Assembly (NCBI GenBank): GCA_022041995.1
Contig: CP074390.1
Location: 1,116,001 to 1,180,000, forward strand
Direction: 5' to 3'
DNA from: Cupriavidus necator
GTDB lineage: Bacteria; Pseudomonadota; Gammaproteobacteria; Burkholderiales; Burkholderiaceae
DNA: 64,000 nucleotides
The position numbers and the translations under genes are program-made. Below are positions 7,023 to 44,592 of the stretch, one piece after another (within the stretch, counting starts at the first letter, position 1; each line of letters begins with the position of its first letter). Below the pieces are notes generated by a model. The model saw only the letters and a list, made by a program, of their open reading frames with translations. It was not told where the DNA came from and made no database searches.

Positions 7023-8123
7023 CTAAACTCCGACCGCCAGAAAAAACCGCAACGCCAGCTTCAGCCCATCCGGCCCCGCCGGATCGGAGAATGCCTGGCC
7101 GCCTGCTCCGCCGCTCCAGGCGTGACCCAGGCCCTCGATCCGCACCAGGCGCAGGTAAGGCGACTTTCCCTCCATCCAGTCGGACACCTCCATGGCACGG
7201 CGCATGCCGCGCTGGATGCGCCGTGCCGGCACCGCGGACAGCGCGTGCGCATCCTCCGGCTGCAGGTGCATCCACAGGCCCGCCGCGGCAGTGGCGTTGC
7301 TGAAATCGACCACGTGGTCGGCATCGCCATGCAGCAATAGCAACGGCGGCGGGCGGCGCCCTGCCAGCCCGAACCGCAGCGCCTGCATGGCCCTGGTATC
7401 GGGCCCGCGCCCCCCGCGCATGGCGCGCGCTGCCTGGGCGGCATTGCTGGCGCTCCAGGGCACCGCGCCGGAGTGCGATCCCACTGCGGCAAAGCGTTCC
7501 GGGTAGCGCAGCCCCAGCATCAGCGCCATCGCGCCGCCCGCGGACAGCCCCAGCACGCTGATGCGGTCCGCGGCGACCGGATGGCGGCGGCAAGCCTGGT
7601 CGATCAGCGCCATCAGCAGCCCGGCTTCAACGCCGCCCTGCGCGGCGGGCCGGAACCAGTTCCAGCAGCGCTGCGCGTTGGCCTGCGAGGTCTGTTCAGG
7701 CAGCAACACCACCCAGCCGGCTTCACGCGCCACGGCGGCGGCGCGCGTGACCGCGGCAAAGCTGGCGGCGTCCTGGCCGCAGCCATGCAGCAGCACCCGC
7801 ATCGGGGCGCGCCGCGACGCCGTGACGCCAGCCGGCACGAAGATGCGGTAGCGGCGCGGTGCCAGTGGCGCGCCGCCCCATGCGCCTTCTTCCCAGCGTC
7901 CGCTGCCGCGGCTTTGCGGCGCCTGCACCGGCGATACCACGCCCGACAGTGCGCGCTGCGTGGCGGCCGTGACTGCAGCCGATTGCTTCACCGCGTTGCG
8001 CACGATGGCCTCGGTCATCGGCCTGGTCAGGTTCTGGTTGACGGCGCGCTGCATGCGGCGCGCATTGCGGGCCGCGGCCTTGTTCAGCGTGGACCAGAGT
8101 TTTGCACCGGATGAGCGGGGCAT
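7023..8123 (-). CDS. PHB-depolymerase-family (LpqC-like) esterase
   Basis: A 366-residue alpha/beta hydrolase of the esterase PHB depolymerase family. The catalytic domain begins near residue 90 (YRIFVPAG, then LLHGCGQDAASFA). The nucleophile serine is in VLGLSAGGAMALML near residue 195, the acid in LLHGDADHVVDF, and the histidine in GLGHAWSGG near the end. The first 85 residues are basic and Ala/Asn/Arg-rich without a clear signal peptide, so a cytoplasmic location, perhaps at PHB granules, is possible. Many family members act on short esters or feruloyl esters, so PHB is not certain. It lies upstream of the toxin-antitoxin pair on the same strand. Confidence 0.85.
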   Translation of the reverse strand: MPRSSGAKLWSTLNKAAARNARRMQRAVNQNLTRPMTEAIVRNAVKQSAAVTAATQRALSGVVSPVQAPQSRGSGRWEEGAWGGAPLAPRRYRIFVPAGVTASRRAPMRVLLHGCGQDAASFAAVTRAAAVAREAGWVVLLPEQTSQANAQRCWNWFRPAAQGGVEAGLLMALIDQACRRHPVAADRISVLGLSAGGAMALMLGLRYPERFAAVGSHSGAVPWSASNAAQAARAMRGGRGPDTRAMQALRFGLAGRRPPPLLLLHGDADHVVDFSNATAAAGLWMHLQPEDAHALSAVPARRIQRGMRRAMEVSDWMEGKSPYLRLVRIEGLGHAWSGGAGGQAFSDPAGPDGLKLALRFFLAVGV

Positions 8124-8254
8124 GCGCGTCCTGTCGGCTTGGGTAACCCGTACATCATATGCGCTGGCTCAGGCCACCTTGCATGCAACGCGTGCCGGAT
8201 GACTGCCTACAATGCAAGGGCCGTGTCATCCCGAGACATGGACAGGAGGCAAGC

Positions 8255-8455
8255 ATGAGCGATGTGACAAGCGAGTTCAGGCCCCTGGATCCGGGCCGCA
8301 TCAACCTGATGGATCCGCTTGAAGTGCAGTACTGGTGCCGGGAGCTGGGCTGCAGCACCAGCGACCTGGAGAACGCCGTCGATGCCGCGGGCGACCATAT
8401 CTCCGCGGTGCGCGCGCAACTGGAGTCGAACCAGGCCGGCGCGCGGCCTGGCTGA
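8255..8455 (+). CDS. Small DUF3606-like protein
   Basis: A 66-residue acidic protein. The core DPGRINLMDPLEVQYWCRELGCSTSDL resembles the DUF3606 family, in which a short helical domain includes a WC.elg.s..eL segment. An AGGAGG-type ribosome site lies 5-8 bp before the ATG at 8255, which decides the start over in-frame codons farther upstream. There are no membrane segments. The function of the family is unknown. It is a single-gene unit followed by a strong hairpin. Confidence 0.75.
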   Translation: MSDVTSEFRPLDPGRINLMDPLEVQYWCRELGCSTSDLENAVDAAGDHISAVRAQLESNQAGARPG

Positions 8456-32116: not shown

Positions 32117-32965
32117 TCAGAATGGGCGGTCCCCGATCACGGTGGCACGGTCCATCCTGCGATGGCACGGCGGGTAGTCCATGACCGCGTAGTGCTGGGT
32201 GGATCGGTTGTCCCAGATCGCCACGCTGTTCGTGGTCCAGCGCCAGCGCACCTGATGCTCCGGAATGTAGGCCTGGGTGATCAGGTAGCGCAGCAGGTCA
32301 GAGGCCCCCAGGCTGAAGTCCTGCCCGAAGCGGACGCGCTCAGGTGTATGGAAGTTCGTGAAGTGGGTGGTAAAGCCGTTCACGAACAACACCTTCTCGC
32401 CGGTCTCGGGATGCGTCCGGACGACGGGATGCTCGGCGTCCGGAAACTGTTCCTTCAGCGCAAGGCGCTTTTCGATCGGCATGGCCGCGCCGAAAGTTGC
32501 CTCGATACTGTGGCGTGCACGCAGGTCAGCAATCTCCGCCTTGACGTGTTGCGGCAGGTTCTCATAGGCCAGGACCATATTGGCCCACATGGTGTCGCCA
32601 CCAACTGGCGGGCATTCCCGGCAACGCAGGATGCTGGCAAGCGGCGGCGCCTCGCGCCAGGTGGCATCCGTGTGCCAGGAATTCTCGTAACGCGGGGTGG
32701 GCTGCTCGGGGCTTTTGTAGATGCGCACCAGCCCGGGATGCTCGGGATCGCTCCCCGCCACCGGATGATCCTCAAGTTCGCCAAAGCGGCGTGCAAAGGC
32801 TACGTGCTCGCCGGCCGTTATGTCCTGGTCACGCAGGAACAGTACACGGTGCCTGAGCAGCGCCTCCCGGATGCCGGCGAATATGCCGTCATCGTGAATG
32901 GCATCGACGAGGCTGACGCCGACCAGTTCGGCGCCAATGGCACAGGTAAGTTGCTCGACTCGCAT
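32117..32965 (-). CDS. TauD/TfdA-family Fe(II)/2-oxoglutarate dioxygenase
   Basis: A 282-residue alpha-ketoglutarate-dependent dioxygenase. The metal triad is visible as WHTDATW (His and Asp, near residue 105) and a distal His in STQHYAVMDY, with the 2-oxoglutarate arginine in CHRRMDRATV near the C-terminus. The N-terminal IGAELVGVSLVDAI and ALLRHRVLFLRDQDIT are family standards. Members hydroxylate taurine, sulfonates, phenoxy acids or alkyl sulfates; I cannot choose among them. The ATG at 32965 is set by the family start MRVEQLTCAIGAEL. It is the first gene of the minus-strand TauD-SDR-AraC group and is divergent from the second AraC gene across 113 bp. Confidence 0.92.
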   Translation of the reverse strand: MRVEQLTCAIGAELVGVSLVDAIHDDGIFAGIREALLRHRVLFLRDQDITAGEHVAFARRFGELEDHPVAGSDPEHPGLVRIYKSPEQPTPRYENSWHTDATWREAPPLASILRCRECPPVGGDTMWANMVLAYENLPQHVKAEIADLRARHSIEATFGAAMPIEKRLALKEQFPDAEHPVVRTHPETGEKVLFVNGFTTHFTNFHTPERVRFGQDFSLGASDLLRYLITQAYIPEHQVRWRWTTNSVAIWDNRSTQHYAVMDYPPCHRRMDRATVIGDRPF

Positions 32966-33078
32966 GGCGACTCCGTCAAATGGTGAAGTTCGAAGCAGAG
33001 TATTGAAGAAGTGGCGCGCGATGCGTTGACATTCCGGGGCAGGCACTTTACATTTTGGGGCACCCTGGGGGAACTCCT

Positions 33079-34095
33079 ATGTCGACGCCGCTGCAACACG
33101 TGAACCTGACGGAATTTGTCGACGTGGCCCGCCAGGTCGGCCTGGATCCCTACCGGCAATTGCGGCAGGCAGGGATCAGCCCGACGGCCCTGGTGGACCC
33201 GGATATCCGGGTCCCGGCAAAGTCGGTCATGCAATTGCTCGAGGATTCGGCGCAGTTCGCGGGCGTCGAGGACCTTGGACTGCGCGTAGCGGAAGCCCGC
33301 CAGCTGACCAGCCTGGGACCGCTATGGATGGTGATGCGCGAGGGCGCCACCCTGCGCAACGCCCTGGAAGCGATGGCGCGCTATCTGCATTTGCTGAATG
33401 AAGCGCTGGACTTGCGCATCGAGGAAGTCGGGGACATCGCGGTCGTCAAGCCTGAATTCCTGGTAAGTGTGCAGGGCTCCATGCGGCAATCGACGGAGTT
33501 CATCATTTGCCTCTGGTTCCGGCTGTTCAAGCTGCTGTCGGGGACGACCTGGAAGCCGCGCAGCATCTGTTTCACCCACGCCGCACCGGCCAGCCTTGCC
33601 ACACATCGGCGCCTGTTCGGCATACCGGTCCGGTTCCGCCAGGATTTCAATGGCATTTTGCTGTCCGCTGCAGACCTCGACGTAGCCGGTCCGGCCTACG
33701 ATGCGGCGCTGGCCCGTCATGCACGCGAATTCCTGGATACCAAACTGGCGCAGTCCGATTCGACCATGCCTGACAAGGTCCGCAAGCTGGTGTTCGCCCT
33801 GTTGCCGACAGGCGAGTGCGGGGCCGAGCAGGTGGCCCGCCAGCTTGGCATTGACCGCAAGACGATGCATCGCCATCTGGCTGGCTATGGCGAGAACTAT
33901 CTGTCCGTCGTCGATGCGGTCAGGGCCGATCTTGTATCGCGATACGTCGCGAATAGCGAACGGCCCTTGTCGGATGTTGCGACCTTGCTGGGCTTCTCTT
34001 CGCTCAGTGCCTTCTCAAGGTGGTTTGCCACACGCTTCGGCTGCAGCGTAACGGCATGGCGCCGTCAGCAATCGGCGCCAGAACGTGTGCGCTAG
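33079..34095 (+). CDS. AraC-family transcriptional regulator (paralogue of 30087)
   Basis: A 338-residue regulator with the same architecture as the one at 30087: N-terminal Arabinose_bd-type domain (FVDVARQVGLDPYRQLRQAG, then EARQLTSLGPLWMVMREG) and C-terminal HTH (AEQVARQLGIDRKTMHRHLA, then VATLLGFSSLSAFSRWFATRFGCSVTAWR). Here the protein ends 10 residues after the HTH, as usual. It is divergent from the TauD-type gene and probably controls it. Its stop overlaps the stop of the converging hydroxy-acid dehydrogenase by 4 bp. The start is the ATG at 33079, preceded by GGGGAACTCCT. Confidence 0.9.
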   Translation: MSTPLQHVNLTEFVDVARQVGLDPYRQLRQAGISPTALVDPDIRVPAKSVMQLLEDSAQFAGVEDLGLRVAEARQLTSLGPLWMVMREGATLRNALEAMARYLHLLNEALDLRIEEVGDIAVVKPEFLVSVQGSMRQSTEFIICLWFRLFKLLSGTTWKPRSICFTHAAPASLATHRRLFGIPVRFRQDFNGILLSAADLDVAGPAYDAALARHAREFLDTKLAQSDSTMPDKVRKLVFALLPTGECGAEQVARQLGIDRKTMHRHLAGYGENYLSVVDAVRADLVSRYVANSERPLSDVATLLGFSSLSAFSRWFATRFGCSVTAWRRQQSAPERVR

Positions 34096-35285
34096 GCGCT
34101 GCGCGTCACGCCTGGCATGCTGACCCAGTCCGCAGCCAGATCCGTCAGCGCTGGGCAGCCCAGCAAGCCGAGCGTGCGGTCGATCTCGGCACGCAGTATC
34201 GCCAGCGCGTGCGCGACGCCCGCCTTGCCGCCAGCCGCCAGGCCATACAGCGTGGCGCGGCCTGACATTGCCGCATCCGCTCCCAGCGCGCGTGCCTTGA
34301 CGAAATCGCTGCCGCGCCGCAGGCCGCTGTCGACGATCAACGTCATCCCGGGGCCGACCGCGGCACGGATCGCGGGAAGCACCTCGATGGGCGCGACGCA
34401 GCTGTCGAGCTGGCGACCGCCGTGGTTGGTGATGACCAGGGCATCGACGCCCAACGCCCGGGCCCGCAGCGCATCGTCGGGCCGCATGATGCCCTTGAGG
34501 ATGAGCTTGCGCGGCCACAGGTCGCGCAACCACTGCACGTCCTGCCAGCTCAGCGAGGGGTCCATCTGCTTCGACAGGAAGGTTGCCGCGTTGCGGGCGT
34601 CGTCCCGGCCGGGTGGAAGGACGTCGCCTAGATTCCGGAAGCGCGGCATGCCATGCGGCACCAGAACGTCCCACCACCAGGCGGGCCGCATGGCGACGTT
34701 GACCAGGTTGGCAAAATCAAGCTTCATCGGCGCCCGATAGTTGCGCCGGTCCCATTCCCGGTTGCCAAGCACGGGAACGTCCGTGGTCACCACAATGGCT
34801 TCGGAGCCGGCCGCTTCGGCACGCCTGACAATGCCCGCCAGGTTCGCGCGATCCTTGAATGGATAGATCTGCATCCAGTGCCGTACGCCGGTCTCGGCAA
34901 CCCGCTCGAGCGCGACCGTCGACACCATGCTCTGGCACATGGGAATGCCTGCATCGCGCGCGGCGTGTGCAAGTGCCAGGTCGCCCTCATGCGCCAGCAG
35001 TCCGTTGAAGCCGGTCGGCGCAACGACCGCGGGCATGGCGATGCGCTCGCCGAACAGCAGGCAGCCGGAATCGCGCACTGAAACATCGACCAGCGTGCGC
35101 GGCGCGAAGGCGATCGCGTCATAGCTGGCGCGATTACGGCTCAGGCTCAGTTCGTCGTCCGCGCCGCCCTCCAGGTATTCAAGGCAGAAGTTGGGCAGGC
35201 GCGCGGCCGCCATCGCGCGCAGCTCGGCAATGTTCTGGGCGCGCCGCACGTCGCGGCCGCGATAGAGACTGCGTTTCATTGTCAT
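34092..35285 (-). CDS. FMN-dependent alpha-hydroxy-acid dehydrogenase (LldD/MdlB-like)
   Basis: A 397-residue FMN enzyme that oxidises an L-2-hydroxy acid such as lactate or mandelate to the 2-oxo acid, passing electrons to the quinone pool or oxygen. APTGFNGLLAHEGDLALAHAA and QIYPFKDR are family segments. The active-site signature is ITNHGGRQLDSC near residue 275, and DSGLRRGSDFVKARALGADA with GRATLYGLAAGG binds FMN phosphate. There are three candidate starts, at 35300, 35285 and 35279; I use 35285. A possible regulator site lies 62 bp upstream. The gene follows the LuxR-type regulator on the same strand after a 133-bp gap. Confidence 0.9.
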   Translation of the reverse strand: MTMKRSLYRGRDVRRAQNIAELRAMAAARLPNFCLEYLEGGADDELSLSRNRASYDAIAFAPRTLVDVSVRDSGCLLFGERIAMPAVVAPTGFNGLLAHEGDLALAHAARDAGIPMCQSMVSTVALERVAETGVRHWMQIYPFKDRANLAGIVRRAEAAGSEAIVVTTDVPVLGNREWDRRNYRAPMKLDFANLVNVAMRPAWWWDVLVPHGMPRFRNLGDVLPPGRDDARNAATFLSKQMDPSLSWQDVQWLRDLWPRKLILKGIMRPDDALRARALGVDALVITNHGGRQLDSCVAPIEVLPAIRAAVGPGMTLIVDSGLRRGSDFVKARALGADAAMSGRATLYGLAAGGKAGVAHALAILRAEIDRTLGLLGCPALTDLAADWVSMPGVTRSA

Positions 35286-35346
35286 GAGGACCGGTTCCAT
35301 TTGATCGCCGCTGCAGGGCTCCGATTATCCGGAGACTGAGAGCGAT

Positions 35347-35372
35347 CGCGCCCCCTGCGCGGAGGAGGGGCG
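35347..35372 (-). promoter_or_regulatory. GC-rich motif upstream of the hydroxy-acid dehydrogenase (site A)
   Basis: On the minus strand the site reads CGCCCCTCCTCCGCG followed by CAGGGGGCGCG. It strongly resembles the motif at 38311, in the same orientation relative to its downstream gene. Both sites flank the LuxR-type gene, and neither lies inside a coding region. This is a candidate regulator-binding site. Confidence 0.55.
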
Positions 35373-35418
35373 AGCCGTGCGGCCCGCCGGCAAGCGCGAG
35401 GGCCGCGGCAGGGCGAAG

Positions 35419-38127
35419 TTACTCGAGACCTTCCAGCAGCCCCAGCAGCTGGGCGCGCCGCACGGCGTGCTTGCGCGTGCCGGCGCTGAGTTTGCCGAAC
35501 AGGTTCTTCACATGCCACTTGGCGGTGACCTCGCCCACCCCGATGGCCTGCGCGATTTCCTTGTTGGAGAGATTGCGCGCGAGCAGTTCAAGGACTTCGC
35601 GTTCCTTGGGCGTCAACACCGTGCTGGCAACGGCGCGCGGCTGCGTCGCAGGGCGTTCCGCGCGGCGCGGTATGCGTGCAACCGGCGCCATCTGGCCAGC
35701 GTCCGCTTTCCCGGCCTTCCCGGCGTCCTCGTCTGCGACACGCCTGGCCCAATCGGCCAGCGCCGGGTGCGCATCGACGAATATGCGGGCAAAGCCGTAG
35801 GTCTGTGCCAGGTTCATCGCTTCCTGCAGCAGCGCCCGGCTGTCTTCGCCGTTGCGATGACGCACGAACGCCTTCAGTGCCATGATCTCGATGCGCCGGC
35901 GCCCGAGTTTCATGGCCTCGGCCAAAGGCGCGGCACGGTCCAGGGCGTCGGCAGCGGCTGGCCAGTCCTGAGCGGCTATCGCCGCGTTGGCATGCGCCAT
36001 GACTTGCAACAGCGACACATCCCGGCGCCACAGCGGGCCATGGTCTGCTTCGACTTGCGCAACGAGTTCGTCAATGCGGGTGATCAGGGCGCGGCACGTC
36101 TCGGCACGGAAGCGCCCCGCATGCATGCGCACCTGATCCGCGAGGCTCGCGATGCAAAGCCGCGGCGTCCGGCGCGCGATGCCCACCGCGTGCAAGGCTT
36201 CGAGCAGGTCGAGTGCACGGTGCTCGACGCCTTGCGCGGCCGCCACGCGCGCAGCGCTCAGGTACGCCAGCAACGACGTTTCCGACGTGCCGGACCGCTC
36301 CAGCACGTCGAGCCGGTTGGCAAGCAGCGCGCCCGCTTCGTCGACCCGGTCGCGCTCATAGACCGCCGCGGCCAGCAGCGACGCCAGCATGCAGGCGAGA
36401 GGATGGCGGCGGCCGAGATCCGCTTCCGCGCTTGCGAGGGCGGGCCGCAGGACCTCTTCGCTTAACATCACCTGCCCTTCACGCAGGTAGCTCAGTCCGA
36501 CCACGAACTCGCCCCAGCGCGCCGCGTAGCGATGACCCTCGCCGAGGTCGCCGCGCGGCGCGAGCTGCAGATGGCGTCGCGCATTCCCTGTTTGCCCTTG
36601 CAGGATCGCCGCCATCGCCAGGCGGTTGGCATGCATCTGGGCCAGCCGCGGGTCGTGCAGAGCGGGGGGCTGGAGCCACGGTTCCAGCAGCGCGAGGCAA
36701 CGGTCTGGCTGGTCTGCGTAGTAGGCCGCTACGCTCAGTATCAGTGCGCATTCGTAGCGCAAGGCGGTATCGGCGCCTGCCCCTTCGAGCAGGCGCGCCA
36801 CCAGCGACTCGGCCTCCGCATGCCGCTCGCCAAGCGCCAGCACCCAGGCGGCGGCCATACGCAGGCCAGGATGCCGGTCCAGTTCCGCATCGGGGAGACG
36901 ATCGAGCCATTCGAGAACGGTCGTGAGTCGCCCCTGCATCACGGCGTCGTAAAGCGAGCGTCCCGCCAGCTCGAAGGCCAGCTCGTGCTGGCCTGCCGCG
37001 TGCGCGTGGCGCCCGGCTTCCTCGGCCATACCGTGCGCGGCCAGCCAGTGCGTCGCGCGGACATGCAGCTCGGTCAGCGCCTCGCCAGGCAGCTCGGCCA
37101 GGCGCACCTGCAGGGCGCTGCGCGCCAGCGTGTGCAGCCGACACCAGTCGCTGTCGTCGCCGGACACAAAGATGGGTGTCTCGCGGACCAGCCGCGCCAG
37201 CTGTCCGGACGCCTGCTCGCTGCCTGTCAGCGCAACGCACAGGTCGGGGTGAAGGTGATCCACGACGGCGATGCGGGTGAGGAAGGCGACGTCGTCGGGC
37301 GCAAGCCTGGCAATCAGGCCGCCGACCAGGTGCTCGCCCTCATCGGCCGGGCGGGCCGACATGGTATCGATGACGCTGCGCGGATCGGCGCCGCGCTCCA
37401 TGGCCGCCAGCACGAGTTGCAGGCCGAGCGGCCATCCATCGGTCATCTCGTGCAGCCGCGCGCAGCTGTCCGCATCCACCCGGTCGCCGAAGCGACTGCG
37501 CACGAGGGCCATGGTTTCGTCGAAACGGAAACGCAGCGCTTCGGGCCCGATGCAGGCGCATTGACCATACGCCGTCAGGTCGAAGACGGCCGTATCGAAT
37601 CCGCTGCGCGCCGCGACCACGATGCGCAGATTGGGCGGCGCGTTGTGCAGCAAGTAAAGCAATGCCGGAAACCCATCTTGCGAGAGACGATCGGCTTCAT
37701 CGACGATCAGCATGAGGTCCAGCGACGTCTGGGCCACCTCGGCAAGCCAGGCCGTCAGCCCCTCGGTGCCGCCCGGCGCCGCGGCTGCGCCTTCGAGCAG
37801 CGTGCGGCCGAAACCCGGCCGTGCGCAACCCGCGCGCACGGCAAGCACGAGGCACTGCAGGAAATGCAGGGGATCGTCATGGGCCTCCGCGGAAACCCAG
37901 GCGACGGGGGCACCGCGCGCCAGGTACTCTCGGCGCCATTGCGCAAGCAGCAGCGTCTTGCCGAAGCCCGGCGGCGCCTGCACGACAACCACCTGCCGGT
38001 CGCGCAGCGCATCGCTGTCGAGATTGAGGCGCGCCCGCGCAAGCAGGTGCCGCGGCGCGCGCGGCGGCATGGTCTTGAGCGCAAGCTCGGAAAACGCGGC
38101 ACCCGCGCCGCGGTTCACTGAGGTCAT
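35419..38127 (-). CDS. MalT/AlkS-type LuxR-family ATP-dependent regulator
   Basis: A large transcription activator of 902 residues from the chosen start. An N-terminal STAND ATPase carries a Walker A loop (VVVQAPPGFGKTLLLAQWRR, about residue 50) and a Walker B-like LDLMLIVDEADRL. A long helical TPR-like sensor follows (about residues 330-800), and a C-terminal LuxR HTH (LTPKEREVLELLARNLSNKE, then IAQAIGVGEVTAKWHVKNLF). This is the layout of MalT and AlkS, which respond to a small inducer plus ATP. The frame is open 59 codons further upstream, without conserved sequence; I use the ATG at 38127. It sits between the hydroxy-acid dehydrogenase and the divergent UspA-hemerythrin gene, both preceded by the shared GC-rich motif. 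Confidence 0.88.
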   Translation of the reverse strand: MTSVNRGAGAAFSELALKTMPPRAPRHLLARARLNLDSDALRDRQVVVVQAPPGFGKTLLLAQWRREYLARGAPVAWVSAEAHDDPLHFLQCLVLAVRAGCARPGFGRTLLEGAAAAPGGTEGLTAWLAEVAQTSLDLMLIVDEADRLSQDGFPALLYLLHNAPPNLRIVVAARSGFDTAVFDLTAYGQCACIGPEALRFRFDETMALVRSRFGDRVDADSCARLHEMTDGWPLGLQLVLAAMERGADPRSVIDTMSARPADEGEHLVGGLIARLAPDDVAFLTRIAVVDHLHPDLCVALTGSEQASGQLARLVRETPIFVSGDDSDWCRLHTLARSALQVRLAELPGEALTELHVRATHWLAAHGMAEEAGRHAHAAGQHELAFELAGRSLYDAVMQGRLTTVLEWLDRLPDAELDRHPGLRMAAAWVLALGERHAEAESLVARLLEGAGADTALRYECALILSVAAYYADQPDRCLALLEPWLQPPALHDPRLAQMHANRLAMAAILQGQTGNARRHLQLAPRGDLGEGHRYAARWGEFVVGLSYLREGQVMLSEEVLRPALASAEADLGRRHPLACMLASLLAAAVYERDRVDEAGALLANRLDVLERSGTSETSLLAYLSAARVAAAQGVEHRALDLLEALHAVGIARRTPRLCIASLADQVRMHAGRFRAETCRALITRIDELVAQVEADHGPLWRRDVSLLQVMAHANAAIAAQDWPAAADALDRAAPLAEAMKLGRRRIEIMALKAFVRHRNGEDSRALLQEAMNLAQTYGFARIFVDAHPALADWARRVADEDAGKAGKADAGQMAPVARIPRRAERPATQPRAVASTVLTPKEREVLELLARNLSNKEIAQAIGVGEVTAKWHVKNLFGKLSAGTRKHAVRRAQLLGLLEGLE

Positions 38128-38310
38128 CTGGCAGGTACCGGTTAGCTTGGATGCGGCGCTCCCCGGGGCGTGCATGCCGGACTGCCTGCGGGGCAATGCA
38201 TCGTCCGCATCGTCCACATAGTCCGTTACTGCGCCCTGCCGTTTGGGGCGGCGTGCCTGGCTCGAAATTGGGTGCCTCATTATAGGCACACGACAACGCC
38301 GCATGGCAAT

Positions 38311-38337
38311 CGCCCCCCTCCTCCGCGGAGGGGGCGC
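38311..38337 (+). promoter_or_regulatory. GC-rich motif upstream of the UspA-hemerythrin gene (site B)
   Basis: Reads CGCCCCCCTC then CTCCGCGGAG then GGGGCGC, with a perfect CTCCGCGGAG palindrome at its centre. It lies 110 bp before the fusion gene and about 180 bp before the divergent LuxR-type start. The 319-bp gap 38128-38446 contains no gene; it carries this site and presumably both promoters. Confidence 0.55.
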
Positions 38338-38446
38338 ACGATGCGGCCGCGGCCTAGTATGCGTCCAGGTCGAAACTGAACGCGAGGCATGGGATGCAAT
38401 TCACGGACGTGAGCGCGTTGGGGCGTGTGCTGGTCGGGGCGCTGGC

Positions 38447-39508
38447 ATGAGCCAGCCTTGCCCCGGTGCCGACGCCATCACGTGCCGCCACCTGCTGGTC
38501 CCCGTCGATGAAACGGGCGAAGCCATGGCTACCGTCATCGGGGCCATCGAGCTGGCGCGCATTGCGGACGCACGCATTACGTTTGTCCATGCACCGCACC
38601 TGGCCGTCGCAACGCCGTACGGCCGGGTGAACCGCGGCCGCGAGCTGCTCGGCAAGGCCGAGTCAGTCGCGCGCGCACACGGGGTGCCATGTGCGTCGGC
38701 TGGCACCATTGGCGCCAACCCGCAAGCCGCTATCCTCGCGGCGGCCCGTGAGGCCGGCTGCGACCTGGTTTTCATCGGCGCCCACGGACACGGCGGCAAT
38801 TCCGGCGCGATGCCAGGATCGCTGCTCCCGGCCGTGCTTGCGGCCGGTATTCCGGTGTTCGTCATGCCGAATTCCCCGTCTGCGAAGCTAGTGCCGGCAA
38901 TCCAGTGCATCCGCGACGAGCACCGCGCTCTCAGTGCCGTATTGCGCGCCTGGCTGGACATGCTCATGGCCGCGAACGACCATGGCACCGCCGCGGACGT
39001 GGAGGTGATGCGAAGCATGATCCGGTTTATCCAGGCCTTCCCGGTCGCGCGACACCATGCGCGCAAGCAGGCCTGCCTCTTTGGCCGCCTGCGCCGGCGC
39101 ACGGCCAGGGCCGACGCCGAACTCGACGAGCTGGAGCGCCAGCACGAACGCGATGCGCAATGGGCAGAAGCACTGGCCGAAGCCGTCGAGAAGTTCGCGG
39201 CAGGCGGCCCGCTGGCCGAGCTGCTGAGCAAGGTAGATCACTACGCGCAGTTCGCCTGGGCGCTCATGGGGCGTGAGGAAGGCGTCATCCTCCCGGCGGC
39301 GCGGCGCCATCTGACCGACGCGGACTGGGACAAGATCAACGCCCCTTACTGCGCCGCGAACACCAGCACAGCGCCCGGCAAGCGCGCTGGTCGGCATGAG
39401 GATCGCCCCTTCGACCTGCTGCTTGCCTACCGTGCCGGCCTTCCGGATGCCGATTGCGTGGCCCGCATCTGCTCGCAAGTGGAAGACGGGTCAACGACGT
39501 TCAAGTGA
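38447..39508 (+). CDS. UspA-hemerythrin-like fusion protein
   Basis: A 353-residue protein with two domains. Residues 10 to about 142 are a universal stress protein domain (HLLVPVDETGEAMATVIGAI, then GCDLVFIGAHGHGGNSGAMP with the ATP-binding G-x2-G pattern, GAHGHGG...PGSLL). Residues about 150 to 310 are a hemerythrin-like helical bundle (IRDEHRALSAVL, RHHARKQACLFGRL, ERQHERDAQW, ALMGREEGVILP). Two expected iron ligands look lost: the acidic residues after HHxxK read KQA, and the His of HMxxEE reads LM. The domain may therefore bind one metal or none. It starts 110 bp after site B and precedes the BKACE gene. The start MSQPCPGADAITCRH is chosen by domain position. Confidence 0.75.
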   Translation: MSQPCPGADAITCRHLLVPVDETGEAMATVIGAIELARIADARITFVHAPHLAVATPYGRVNRGRELLGKAESVARAHGVPCASAGTIGANPQAAILAAAREAGCDLVFIGAHGHGGNSGAMPGSLLPAVLAAGIPVFVMPNSPSAKLVPAIQCIRDEHRALSAVLRAWLDMLMAANDHGTAADVEVMRSMIRFIQAFPVARHHARKQACLFGRLRRRTARADAELDELERQHERDAQWAEALAEAVEKFAAGGPLAELLSKVDHYAQFAWALMGREEGVILPAARRHLTDADWDKINAPYCAANTSTAPGKRAGRHEDRPFDLLLAYRAGLPDADCVARICSQVEDGSTTFK

Positions 39509-39599: not shown

Positions 39600-40655
39600 A
39601 TGCAATTTCTCGACGATTCCCTGCATCCGGAGAACCAGGACAAAGTGGTCATCACGGCGGCCCCGTATGGCCCGGAGTGGATGCCGCAGGACTTCCCGGA
39701 AGACATCCCGGTGACCATGGAAGAACAGGTGCAGAAGGCCGTGGATTGCTACAACGCAGGCGCCACCGTGCTGCACCTGCACGTGCGCGAACTCGACGGC
39801 AAGGGCTCCAAGCGCCTGTCCAAATTCAACGAGCTGATCGCCGGCGTGCGCGCCGCGGTGCCGGACATGATCATCCAGGTCGGCGGTTCGATCTCGTTTG
39901 CCCCCGAAGACGAAGGTGAGGCCGCCAAGTGGCTGTCCGATGACACCCGCCACATGCTCGCGGAACTCACCCCGAAACCCGACCAGGTGACGGTGGCGAT
40001 CAACACCACCCAGATGAACATCATGGAACTCCTCTATCCGGAGTACCTGAAGGGCACCTCGCTGGAGCAGCCGGCCTACCAGGCCGCCTACCGTGAAATG
40101 ACCGTGCCGGCCGGCCCCGGCTGGGTGGAAGAGCACCTGCGCCGCCTGCAGGCTTCACGCATCCAGCCGCACTTCCAGCTCACTGGCATCCACGCACTCG
40201 AAACGCTCGAGCGCCTGGTGCGCAGCGGCGCCTACACCGGCCCGCTGAACCTGACCTGGATCGGCATCGGCGGCGGCTTCGACGGCCCCAACCCGTTCAA
40301 CTTCTTCAACTTCGTGCACCGCGCGCCGGACGGCTGCACGCTGACCGCCGAGTCGCTGCTGAAGAACGTGCTGCCGTTCAACATGATGGCCATGGCGATG
40401 GGCCTGCATCCGCGCTGCGGCATCGAGGACACCATCATCGACCAGCACGGCAAGCGCATGACCTCGGTGCAGCAGATCGAGCAGTGCGTGCGCGTGGCAG
40501 AGGAACTGGGCCGCGAGATCGCCTCGGGCAAGGAAGCGCGCGAGATCTACCGCATCGGCACCTGGTACGACAGCGCCGACGAGACGCTGGCCGCCCACGG
40601 CATGGCACCCAATCGGCAGGCCGGCGTCAGGAACCTGCCGCTGCGCGCGGCCTGA
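39600..40655 (+). CDS. BKACE-family beta-keto acid cleavage enzyme (DUF849)
   Basis: A 351-residue zinc enzyme of the DUF849 family, whose founding member Kce cleaves 3-keto-5-aminohexanoate with acetyl-CoA to acetoacetate and an acyl-CoA product. The barrel opens VVITAAPYGPEW, the zinc pair is in TVLHLHVRELDG near residue 60, and IQVGGSISFAP, PHFQLTGIHALETLERL and GLHPRCGIEDTI are typical. CAGGAGGAGACC immediately precedes the ATG at 39600. The family uses many beta-keto acids, so the substrate is open. It is followed by a strong 19-bp hairpin and the TTT receptor, suggesting uptake and thiolytic cleavage of one compound. Confidence 0.92.
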   Translation: MQFLDDSLHPENQDKVVITAAPYGPEWMPQDFPEDIPVTMEEQVQKAVDCYNAGATVLHLHVRELDGKGSKRLSKFNELIAGVRAAVPDMIIQVGGSISFAPEDEGEAAKWLSDDTRHMLAELTPKPDQVTVAINTTQMNIMELLYPEYLKGTSLEQPAYQAAYREMTVPAGPGWVEEHLRRLQASRIQPHFQLTGIHALETLERLVRSGAYTGPLNLTWIGIGGGFDGPNPFNFFNFVHRAPDGCTLTAESLLKNVLPFNMMAMAMGLHPRCGIEDTIIDQHGKRMTSVQQIEQCVRVAEELGREIASGKEAREIYRIGTWYDSADETLAAHGMAPNRQAGVRNLPLRAA

Positions 40656-40730: not shown

Positions 40731-41708
40731 ATGTCCAATCGTCCTGCGCTCTTCGCATTCCGCAAGGTTGCCGTTGCCGTCATGCTGGCCGCAGCGATGC
40801 CCGCGGCCATGGCCTGGACCAGCAAGCCCGTGCGCATGCTGGTGCCTGCCCCCGCCGGCGGGACCATGGACGTCATCGCCCGCGTGCTGGCCGAGCAGCT
40901 TTCGGCGGACCTCGGGCAGCCCGTGGTGGTCGACAACAAGCCGGGCGCCAGTGGTGGCATCGCGATCAATACCCTGCTGGCGGCGCCGCCTGACGGCCAG
41001 ACCATCCTGGTCACGCTCACCAATGTCTTCACCGAAGTTCCGCATGTGATGAAGGTCTCCTTTGATCCGGTGAAGGACGTGAGGCCCGTTGCCGCCGTGA
41101 GCAAGGTGACCATGGTGCTGGTCGCATCGACTGACCTGCCGGCCAGGGATCTGCCGGGCCTGATCCGCTATGTGAAGGCCAACCCCGGCAAGCTGAGCTT
41201 TGCTTCGCCCAGTGCGGGCACGGTCGGCCACTATGCCGGCATGATCATGAACCAGAAGGCCGGCATGGATCTGCAGCACGTGCCGTTTCCCGGCTCACCG
41301 CCGGGACTGACACAAGTAATGGGCGGGCAGATCACTGTGATGTACGACAACATGGTGACTTCGCTGCCACTGATCAAGGCCGGCAAGCTGAGGCCCTATG
41401 CGCTGGCGGCAAAGCAGCGTTCGCCGCTGCTGCCGCAGGTTCCGACTTTCGCCGAGCTCGGCTATCCGGACATCGATTTCAGCAACTGGGGTGGTGTTTT
41501 CGTATCCGCCAAGGTGCCGGCAGACCTCAGCCAGAAGATCCAGGCGGCGGTCTACAAGGCGGCGTCGAAACCCCGTGTGCAGGAACGGTTCATGGCACTC
41601 GGCATGGAGCCAGCGCCCGCGCAGGGGCTGCCGGAACTCAGCCAGGCACTGCGCACGGAGTTCGATCGCAATGCCGGCATCGTGAAGGCATTCCATATTC
41701 AGCCATGA
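40731..41708 (+). CDS. TTT (Bug) family periplasmic solute receptor (paralogue of 25034)
   Basis: A 325-residue receptor, the same length as that at 25034 and very similar throughout (both have MAWT, KPVR, PAPAGGTMDV, AAPPDGQTIL, ALAAKQRSP and end in HIQP). The signal peptide is FRKVAVAVMLAAAMPAAMA. The ligand-loop residues are conserved in both, but several differ (for example FASPSAGT against FASYSAGT), so they may bind related but distinct carboxylates. There are no membrane components in the window. It is followed 56 bp later by the quinone oxidoreductase. The start is the ATG at 40731. Confidence 0.93.
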   Translation: MSNRPALFAFRKVAVAVMLAAAMPAAMAWTSKPVRMLVPAPAGGTMDVIARVLAEQLSADLGQPVVVDNKPGASGGIAINTLLAAPPDGQTILVTLTNVFTEVPHVMKVSFDPVKDVRPVAAVSKVTMVLVASTDLPARDLPGLIRYVKANPGKLSFASPSAGTVGHYAGMIMNQKAGMDLQHVPFPGSPPGLTQVMGGQITVMYDNMVTSLPLIKAGKLRPYALAAKQRSPLLPQVPTFAELGYPDIDFSNWGGVFVSAKVPADLSQKIQAAVYKAASKPRVQERFMALGMEPAPAQGLPELSQALRTEFDRNAGIVKAFHIQP

Positions 41709-41764: not shown

Positions 41765-42736
41765 ATGGCAAAAGCTATTCGCTTCTACGAGACCGGCAGC
41801 GCCGACGTCCTCAAGCTCGAAACAGTCGAGGTCGGCGATCCCGGCCCGGGCCAGGCGCGCGTTCGCCACACCTATATCGCGGTCAATTTCATCGACATCT
41901 ACTTCCGCACCGGCCACTATCCGCTTCAGCTGCCCAACGGCCTGGGCTCGGATGCGGTTGGCGTGGTCGAGGCCGTCGGCCCGGGCGTGACCGACATCCG
42001 TGTCGGCGACCGCGTCGGCTATCTGCTCGGGCCCCAGGGCGCTTACTCGGACGTGCGCGTGATGCCTGCGGAAGTCCTGATCCCGTTGCCCGATGGCGTC
42101 TCCGACCGTACTGCCTCGACGCTCATCATGAAGGGCATGACTGCCCAATACCTGTTCCGCCAGGTCTACCCGCTCAAGGGTGGCGAAACCATCCTCTATC
42201 ACGCCGCGGCTGGCGGCGTCGGCCTGATCGCGTGTCAGTGGGCACGCGCGCTTGGCGTGACCATGATCGGCACGGTCAGCTCGGATGAAAAGGCCGAGAT
42301 CGCCAGGGCCAATGGCTGCGCGCACACCATCGTCACTTCGCGCGAAGACATCGTCGAGCGCGTGATGGAAATCACCGACGGCAAGAAGGTCCCGGTCGTG
42401 TTCGACTCGGTCGGCAAATCGACACTGGATGCATCGCTGTCCTGCCTGCAGGTGCGGGGCACCCTGGTCAGCAACGGCACGACTTCCGGGCCGGTGGAAA
42501 TCGACAGCCGCACACTCGCGGCCAAGGGTTCGCTGTGGGTCACGCGTCCGGCCATGGTGCACTACGCCACGCCGCGTTCGCACATGCTGGACATGGCCAG
42601 GGAGTTATTCGACATGGTGCTGGCCGGCAAGATCACGAGCGAGCCCAAGCAGAGCTTCGCGCTGGCCGATGCCGCCGAGGCCCACCGCGCGCTCGAATCC
42701 AGGAAGACCAGCGGCGCTACCGTCCTGGTACCGTAA
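41765..42736 (+). CDS. Quinone oxidoreductase-like MDR protein
   Basis: A 323-residue zinc-free medium-chain reductase of the QorA type. The start MAKAIRFYETGSADVL is classical, as are HTYIAVNFIDIYFRTGHYPLQLP and the glycine-rich AAAGGVGLIACQWARALGV near residue 148. YGPAVVDS-like elements appear as FDSVGKSTLDASL. It reduces quinones or enones with NADPH in related proteins. It lies downstream of the TTT receptor and upstream of an SDR, so it may be the second reductive step in the cluster. The ATG at 41765 follows an AGGAGACCTTT site. Confidence 0.92.
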   Translation: MAKAIRFYETGSADVLKLETVEVGDPGPGQARVRHTYIAVNFIDIYFRTGHYPLQLPNGLGSDAVGVVEAVGPGVTDIRVGDRVGYLLGPQGAYSDVRVMPAEVLIPLPDGVSDRTASTLIMKGMTAQYLFRQVYPLKGGETILYHAAAGGVGLIACQWARALGVTMIGTVSSDEKAEIARANGCAHTIVTSREDIVERVMEITDGKKVPVVFDSVGKSTLDASLSCLQVRGTLVSNGTTSGPVEIDSRTLAAKGSLWVTRPAMVHYATPRSHMLDMARELFDMVLAGKITSEPKQSFALADAAEAHRALESRKTSGATVLVP

Positions 42737-44565: not shown

Positions 44566-44592
44566 CCCCTCTCCCGCCGGGCGGGAGAGGGG
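44566..44592. repeat. CTCTCCCGC-type palindrome
   Basis: CCCCTCTCCCGCC, one G, then GGCGGGAGAGGGG: a perfect 13-bp inverted repeat flanked by TTTTC and AAAAC. It lies upstream of the minus-strand SDR start, so it is not that gene's terminator. Related hairpins are at 9593 and 26068. Confidence 0.65.

Follow-up and report, generated by a model that had tools for sequence, protein, structure and literature searches.

In Cupriavidus necator, the gene for a MalT-type (LAL/STAND) regulator lies between two matched GC-rich sites, here called sites A and B, which raises the question of whether these sites are the operators through which the regulator controls its neighbours. The locus belongs to a window of 64,000 nt (assembly GCA_022041995.1, contig CP074390.1, positions 1,116,001-1,180,000, forward strand), which is the whole stretch of DNA analysed here and to which plain coordinates refer. 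A first-pass annotation had described the sites as pointing toward a hydroxy-acid dehydrogenase gene (site A) and a Usp-hemerythrin gene (site B), and had suggested that the LuxR-type protein encoded between them binds both sites and has both genes in its regulon. Our analysis points to a similar answer with a probability of about 0.87: sites A and B are most likely operators of the MalT-type regulator, which would activate both flanking transcription units.

Sites A and B share one rare and oriented dyad

Both sites conform to a single dyad, CCCCCTCC-N5-GSAGGGGG (S = G or C). The pattern CGCCCCN{0,2}TCCTCCGCGSAGGGGGCGC had exactly two matches in the window, sites A and B, compared to a mean of 0.00 expected from 100 shuffles, and this confirmed the annotated pair. 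Each site was also oriented as had been described, site A toward the flavin mononucleotide (FMN)-dependent hydroxy-acid dehydrogenase gene and site B toward the Usp-hemerythrin gene. Site B lies between divergent genes and is therefore upstream of the regulator gene too.

The whole 9.6-Mb genome was searched for the motif, as the first-pass annotation had advised. When one mismatch was allowed, the 17-base core CCTCCGCGSAGGGGGCG was found three times, two of which were sites A and B, and the same pattern read backwards gave no match in the genome; frequent random occurrence was thus not seen at high stringency. No combination of the dyad with a -10 element was found at the core-like match C1:1908423 (L068) of this genome, or at an extra exact match in the relative G025 (C3:910584, L067). 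Outside the locus, the dyad occurred with two mismatches at a single place, C1:1250699, between two open reading frames (ORFs), where TAnnnT at the expected spacing was not seen by eye. As only sites A and B stand out in the genome, the regulon appears to consist of the two flanking transcription units.

In the genomes of 21 relatives, the strict dyad (at most one mismatch) was present at 24 places in 14 genomes, so that the dyad is rare and not a dispersed repeat. Twelve of these 24 matches are locus sites, in 12 genomes, as judged from their coordinates.

These counts bear directly on the possibility that sites A and B belong to a class of GC-rich palindromes scattered between genes, such as repetitive extragenic palindrome (REP)-like hairpins or terminators. 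It is true that GC-rich dyads could fold as RNA, that the same window holds a different palindrome at 44567-44591, and that the two-mismatch relative at C1:1250699 lies between two ORFs. However, the core with at most one mismatch occupied this locus and one other place in 9.6 Mb, the latter without a dyad/-10 combination, and the strict dyad numbered 0-5 places per genome among the relatives. Terminator-like sites were absent from 35250-38500 (0 found, 1.3 in shuffles), site B has divergent genes on its two sides, and the dyad is found at a fixed spacing upstream of a -10 element. A weaker point is that the arms of 21 selected CCCCCTCC-type sites contain no G-T pairs, a selection that left out longer-tract variants, which in part place T opposite G. 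In the same selection, left positions 2-6 and 8 and right positions 14 and 16-19 were invariant. We consider dispersed palindromes a very improbable explanation of sites A and B.

The dyad lies at a fixed distance from a predicted -10 element

Promoter positions were counted from predicted -10 hexamers. Because the hexamer is set at -12 to -7, the dyads of sites A and B are centred at about -43, over the -35 region, which is where class II activators sit. A scan of 35250-38500 for paired sigma-70 consensus -10 and -35 elements found none (0.3 in shuffles); this is compatible with activator-dependent promoters and proves nothing. From the position at which site B is centred relative to the predicted -10 of the regulator gene itself (Table 1), autoregulation may be possible.

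Fifty-four homologue loci were found among named genomes. In Paraburkholderia, the dyad precedes a unit encoding a quinone oxidoreductase (QOR), a TauD-type dioxygenase and a beta-keto acid cleavage enzyme (BKACE) in most loci, and in Variovorax and others its place is between the genes for the regulator and for TauD or BKACE. We scanned 46 loci from outside Cupriavidus (L085-L131 without L126; 632,103 bp) for a relaxed dyad, with at least 14 of 16 positions matching, followed by TAnnnT. Forty-five combinations were found at a distance of 30-32 bp. The counts for six other distance classes of 3 bp were 0, 0, 1, 3, 1 and 2, and none of five shuffles gave a combination. Most of them (34/45, in 33 loci) were located at most 420 bp upstream of the start of a TauD, BKACE, QOR or Usp-hemerythrin gene. 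In L101, L111 and L124 the site stands before a target gene that does not adjoin the regulator gene, and a site in L121 is likewise found near a Usp-hemerythrin gene. The -10 spacing had been noticed earlier than the scan pattern was written, and the stronger evidence here comes from the fixed distance and from the shuffles. Both the constant distance and the sites that stay with their targets away from the regulator support the proposed operator and regulon.

Some combinations outside the count at recognised target starts are candidates for extra regulon members: L094:9718, L112:6929, L113:16019, L117:9660 and 13993, and further L109:9202 and 10694, and L127:1729.

Conservation and loss of the sites within Cupriavidus

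The regulator protein was searched for in 60 Cupriavidus genomes, including that of the window. Close orthologues (83-100% identity) were present in nine, again including our own, diverged regulators (55-57% identity) in G023, G024, G071 and G080, and a homologue of 39% identity in G014. A relaxed form of the dyad, CCCCYNC-N5-GNRGGGGGCG, occurred in 13 of the 60 genomes, namely at the locus in all nine with a close orthologue and in four others. This association lends further support to the proposed operator and regulon.

Site B was kept in all nine genomes with a close orthologue, and its arms were invariant in the nine-sequence alignment. The T, A, A and T of its -10 element were likewise invariant, and the stretch between the arms and the -10 element was variable. 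The -10 element of the regulator gene (ATTATA on the plus strand) did not vary in any of the nine sequences; that of site A read GATAAT in seven of eight aligned sequences and GATGAT in G026. The Usp-hemerythrin gene had no match in G006, where site B directly precedes the BKACE gene.

The dehydrogenase gene was kept in the window and in G067, G017, G076 and G006, and site A was intact in these last four, the window copy being one C short. No match to the gene was found in G003, G019, G025 and G026, although short remnants were readable in some, and site A was intact in none of these four: it was absent from G019, changed in its left half in G003, split by an 11-bp repeat in G025, and changed in its left arm and -10 element in G026. 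Decay of site A where the dehydrogenase gene is gone would reflect a loss of constraint, the sample being small. How operators decay is suggested by such genomes, in which target genes have been lost naturally. The downstream flanks of the regulator in L070, L071, L072 and L073, which in four Cupriavidus genomes gave no match to the dehydrogenase gene, are natural test cases for operator decay.

The behaviour of the two sites also speaks to the idea that the regulator is carried by a mobile cassette of which they are the terminal inverted repeats, since they do flank the regulator gene in inverted orientation. Gene order is, however, largely conserved across the Cupriavidus loci compared, site B persists alone in G019, where site A has been lost, and outside the genus the site is placed ahead of the target operon and not at the borders of the regulator. 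A mobile cassette is therefore an extremely remote alternative to paired operators.

Both contig copies in G076 (L065 and L066) have an interrupted regulator frame, and in G024 (L076) the regulator is split over matches to residues 1-484 and 488-898. The regulator may be broken in these two genomes, or the assembly may be faulty there.

The regulator belongs to the MalT-type proteins and appears to change together with its proposed site

Three domains were recognised in the regulator by Pfam: an N-terminal P-loop NTPase (AAA_22, 38.7 bits compared to a cut-off of 27, residues 43-177, with a GFGKT motif in the translation), a MalT-like tetratricopeptide repeat (TPR) region (TPR_MalT, 49.7 bits, cut-off 45) and a C-terminal LuxR-type helix-turn-helix (HTH) (GerE, 47.3 bits, cut-off 23.5, residues 837-892). 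It thus has the three domain features expected of a LAL/MalT-type STAND activator. With 220.2 bits it fell below the curated cut-off of 537 for the MalT equivalog NF003420, and it does not qualify as MalT itself. The quorum-sensing regulator LuxR, which acts at the lux box, has an HTH of the same family and an activator site near -42. In contrast to LuxR, the present protein has 902 residues and an NTPase domain, and no autoinducer-binding domain was among its Pfam matches.

The recognition helix of the diverged regulators of G023 and G024 reads IGQETVKWHLKNLSAKL as compared to VGEVTAKWHVKNLFGKL, and G023, G071 and both G080 loci have an altered dyad (CCCCCCCGCTGCTGGGGGG or alike) that is followed by TAnnnT at a distance of about 29-30.5 bp. 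No dyad/-10 combination was scored in G024. Among 20 further loci with LAL homologues, CCACCC-type dyads were found at 31 bp in L012 and L029 (38-39% identity), and a weaker dyad at 32 bp in L025; the dyad scores of these three loci, the only such ones of the 20, were 13-14, with TAnnnT at 31-32 bp.

These observations help to decide whether the sites might instead be operators for a different transcription factor, such as the AraC-type regulator encoded at 33055-34095 or one encoded elsewhere. An AraC-family gene is indeed close by, and the assignment to the LAL regulator is drawn from sequence. On the other hand, the relaxed dyad was present at the LAL locus in every Cupriavidus genome with a close orthologue and had any match in only 4 of the 51 others, many relatives have no homologue of the AraC gene listed on the locus, and the spacer and promoter position agree with those of a MalT-type motif. 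The LAL protein is also favoured by the altered C/G dyads (in G023, G071 and G080) beside diverged regulators whose recognition helix is altered (as read for G023 and G024). We regard control of the sites by a different factor as improbable, and favour the MalT-type regulator as the protein that would bind them.

Comparison with known MalT operators

To our knowledge, few LAL operators are known outside E. coli MalT and the actinomycete regulators. E. coli MalT is arranged as an NTPase, a MalT-like TPR region and a C-terminal GerE HTH. Among the open-access literature matches listed, as represented by titles and abstract openings, no description of the present regulator-operator pair was recognised, and the MalT of Actinoplanes sp. 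SE50/110 (ACSP50_3915) is the only useful parallel among them.

In Actinoplanes, MalT was assigned the motif TCATCC-N5-GGATGA, which overlaps the -35 region and has its 3' end at a distance of 34.4 +/- 1.0 bases from the mapped transcription start site (PMC7567727); by arithmetic on these values, its centre is at about -43. The protein activates the region around its own gene, and maltose-metabolism genes were unaffected (PMC7567727). The regulator and sites described here are similar in that a LuxR-family MalT-like regulator is associated with a palindrome that has a 5-nt spacer and inner TCC/GGA, centred at about -43 over the -35 region, which in our case is counted from a predicted -10 element. 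The shared spacer and promoter position are in favour of the operator and regulon reading. The two systems differ in the outer half-site, which is a G tract (GGAGGGGG) here and not GGATGA, and in the regulon, which here comprises TauD, BKACE, QOR, Usp-hemerythrin and FMN-dehydrogenase genes in Proteobacteria.

The E. coli MalT box is quoted in the same report as GGGGA(T/G)GAGG (PMC7567727). Our regulator resembles E. coli MalT in its domain layout and in a GGA(T/G)G-type half-site near -35. Unlike this box, the half-sites of site B read GGAGGG, which agrees with five of six bases of the GGA(T/G)GA core and differs in the last base, and each of our sites is one inverted pair.

Points that weigh against the proposed operators

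Several results weigh against sites A and B being operators of this regulator. The left arm of site A is one C shorter than that of site B. An 18-mer core with at most two mismatches was present in at least 68 of 100 relatives, and because the loose core is so widespread, only stringent matches are informative. When up to three mismatches were allowed, the dyad had 40 places in its own genome as compared to 31 for the backward control. Relaxed matches away from the locus were seen in G028, G063, G079 and G081, all without an orthologue at E <= 1e-150, and the other 12 of the 24 strict matches in relatives are also off locus.

The spacing scan has its own weaknesses. Eleven of the 45 sites fell outside the count at target starts (for that of L105, the estimated TauD start is within 20 bp; the remaining ten are at other or unknown genes), and 8 of the 46 loci had no combination (L090, L096, L114, L115, L116, L123, L125 and L131). 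The scan was not blind, as those flanks had already been read when the relaxed pattern was drawn up, and the loci are related to one another and are not independent. In addition, when the 20 further LAL loci were scanned for any 6-N5-6 inverted repeat before TAnnnT, one perfect repeat and four with one mispair were found at 30-32 bp, as compared to 0-1 perfect and 0-5 one-mispair repeats at other distances. This general test found no enrichment at 30-32 bp and thus gave no support for the geometry in LAL proteins at large.

Extra regulon members in the own genome were rejected, as 40 places compared to 31 for the backward control represent little or no excess.

Proposed mechanism and significance

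On balance, we favour the following model for sites A and B. With inducer and ATP, the regulator would oligomerise, and its C-terminal LuxR-type HTH would bind the inverted half-sites (GGAGGGGG-like). With the dyad at about -43, the bound regulator would make contact with RNA polymerase where the promoter has a recognisable -10 element and lacks a consensus -35, thus acting as an activator and presumably not as a repressor. This would switch on the FMN hydroxy-acid dehydrogenase gene on one side and, on the other, the divergent Usp-hemerythrin/BKACE unit, which may be part of an aerobic catabolic pathway.

A MalT-type activator with an operator and a small regulon is of a kind already known, and the present one is a new example. 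We also put forward, tentatively and at somewhat less than even odds, that a widespread proteobacterial MalT-type clade (recognition helix ~KWHVKNLF) has a common operator rule, a C-tract/G-tract dyad at about -43, and controls a so far unnamed aerobic pathway (TauD-type dioxygenase, BKACE, quinone oxidoreductase and, in places, Usp-hemerythrin) in Beta- and Alphaproteobacteria. If true, the Actinoplanes-like geometry would mean that STAND activators can keep their promoter position across phyla while the letters of the half-sites drift with the recognition helix. With a predicted operator at a fixed position in 33 loci that have a recognised target gene, the regulon, inducer and substrate become directly testable.

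Gene order and other features of the locus

The features of the locus are collected in Table 1.

Table 1. Coordinates of genes, sites and predicted promoter elements in the window.
Feature	Position	Strand	Remarks
AraC-type regulator gene	33055-34095		nearby AraC-family gene
FMN-dependent 2-hydroxy-acid dehydrogenase gene, (S)-mandelate-dehydrogenase-like	34092..35300	-	same strand as regulator, downstream of it
Predicted -10 GATAAT, FMN-dehydrogenase promoter	35324..35329	-	32 bp from site A dyad centre base
Site A, proposed operator of FMN-dehydrogenase promoter	35348..35372	-	dyad 35351-35371, GCCCCTCC-TCCGC-GCAGGGGG
MalT-type (LAL/STAND) regulator gene, 902 aa	35419..38127	-	Pfam domains: NTPase, MalT-like TPR, C-terminal LuxR/GerE HTH
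Predicted -10 TATAAT, regulator's own promoter	38279..38284	-	site B dyad centre 40 bp upstream
Site B, proposed operator of Usp-hemerythrin/BKACE promoter	38311..38337	+	dyad 38314-38334, CCCCCTCC-TCCGC-GGAGGGGG
Predicted -10 TAGTAT, Usp-hemerythrin/BKACE promoter	38355..38360	+	31 bp from site B dyad centre base
18-codon ORF (MQFTDVSALGRVLVGALA)	38394..38450	+	stop overlaps usp start
Usp-hemerythrin gene, ATG 38447	38447..39508	+	divergent to regulator; first full gene downstream of site B
BKACE gene	39600..40655	+	likely member of site-B unit; directly after site B in G006
Periplasmic binding protein gene	40731..41708	+	possible downstream member of site-B unit
NADPH:quinone reductase family (QOR) gene	41765..42736	+	possible downstream member of site-B unit

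The dehydrogenase ORF starts at 35300, and a start at about 35285 is conserved among relatives, as read by eye from their sequences. The product of the gene at 40731..41708, which we take to be a periplasmic binding protein of the Bug type, had zero matches in an NCBIfam search.

The genes for a TauD-type dioxygenase and the AraC-type regulator (32117-34095) are divergent, with starts about 30 bp apart. No dyad/-10 combination was found between these two starts, and TauD, the usual target in other genera, seems not to belong to the LAL regulon here.

The perfect GC-rich palindrome at 44567-44591, CCCTCTCCCGCCGGGCGGGAGAGGG, is unlike the operator and is possibly a terminator or a repeat element. 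At the place of the 18-codon ORF, L070 has an intact Rieske ferredoxin gene (7959-8267; Pfam Rieske, 67.9 bits), and the ORF of the window therefore looks like a Rieske ferredoxin remnant.

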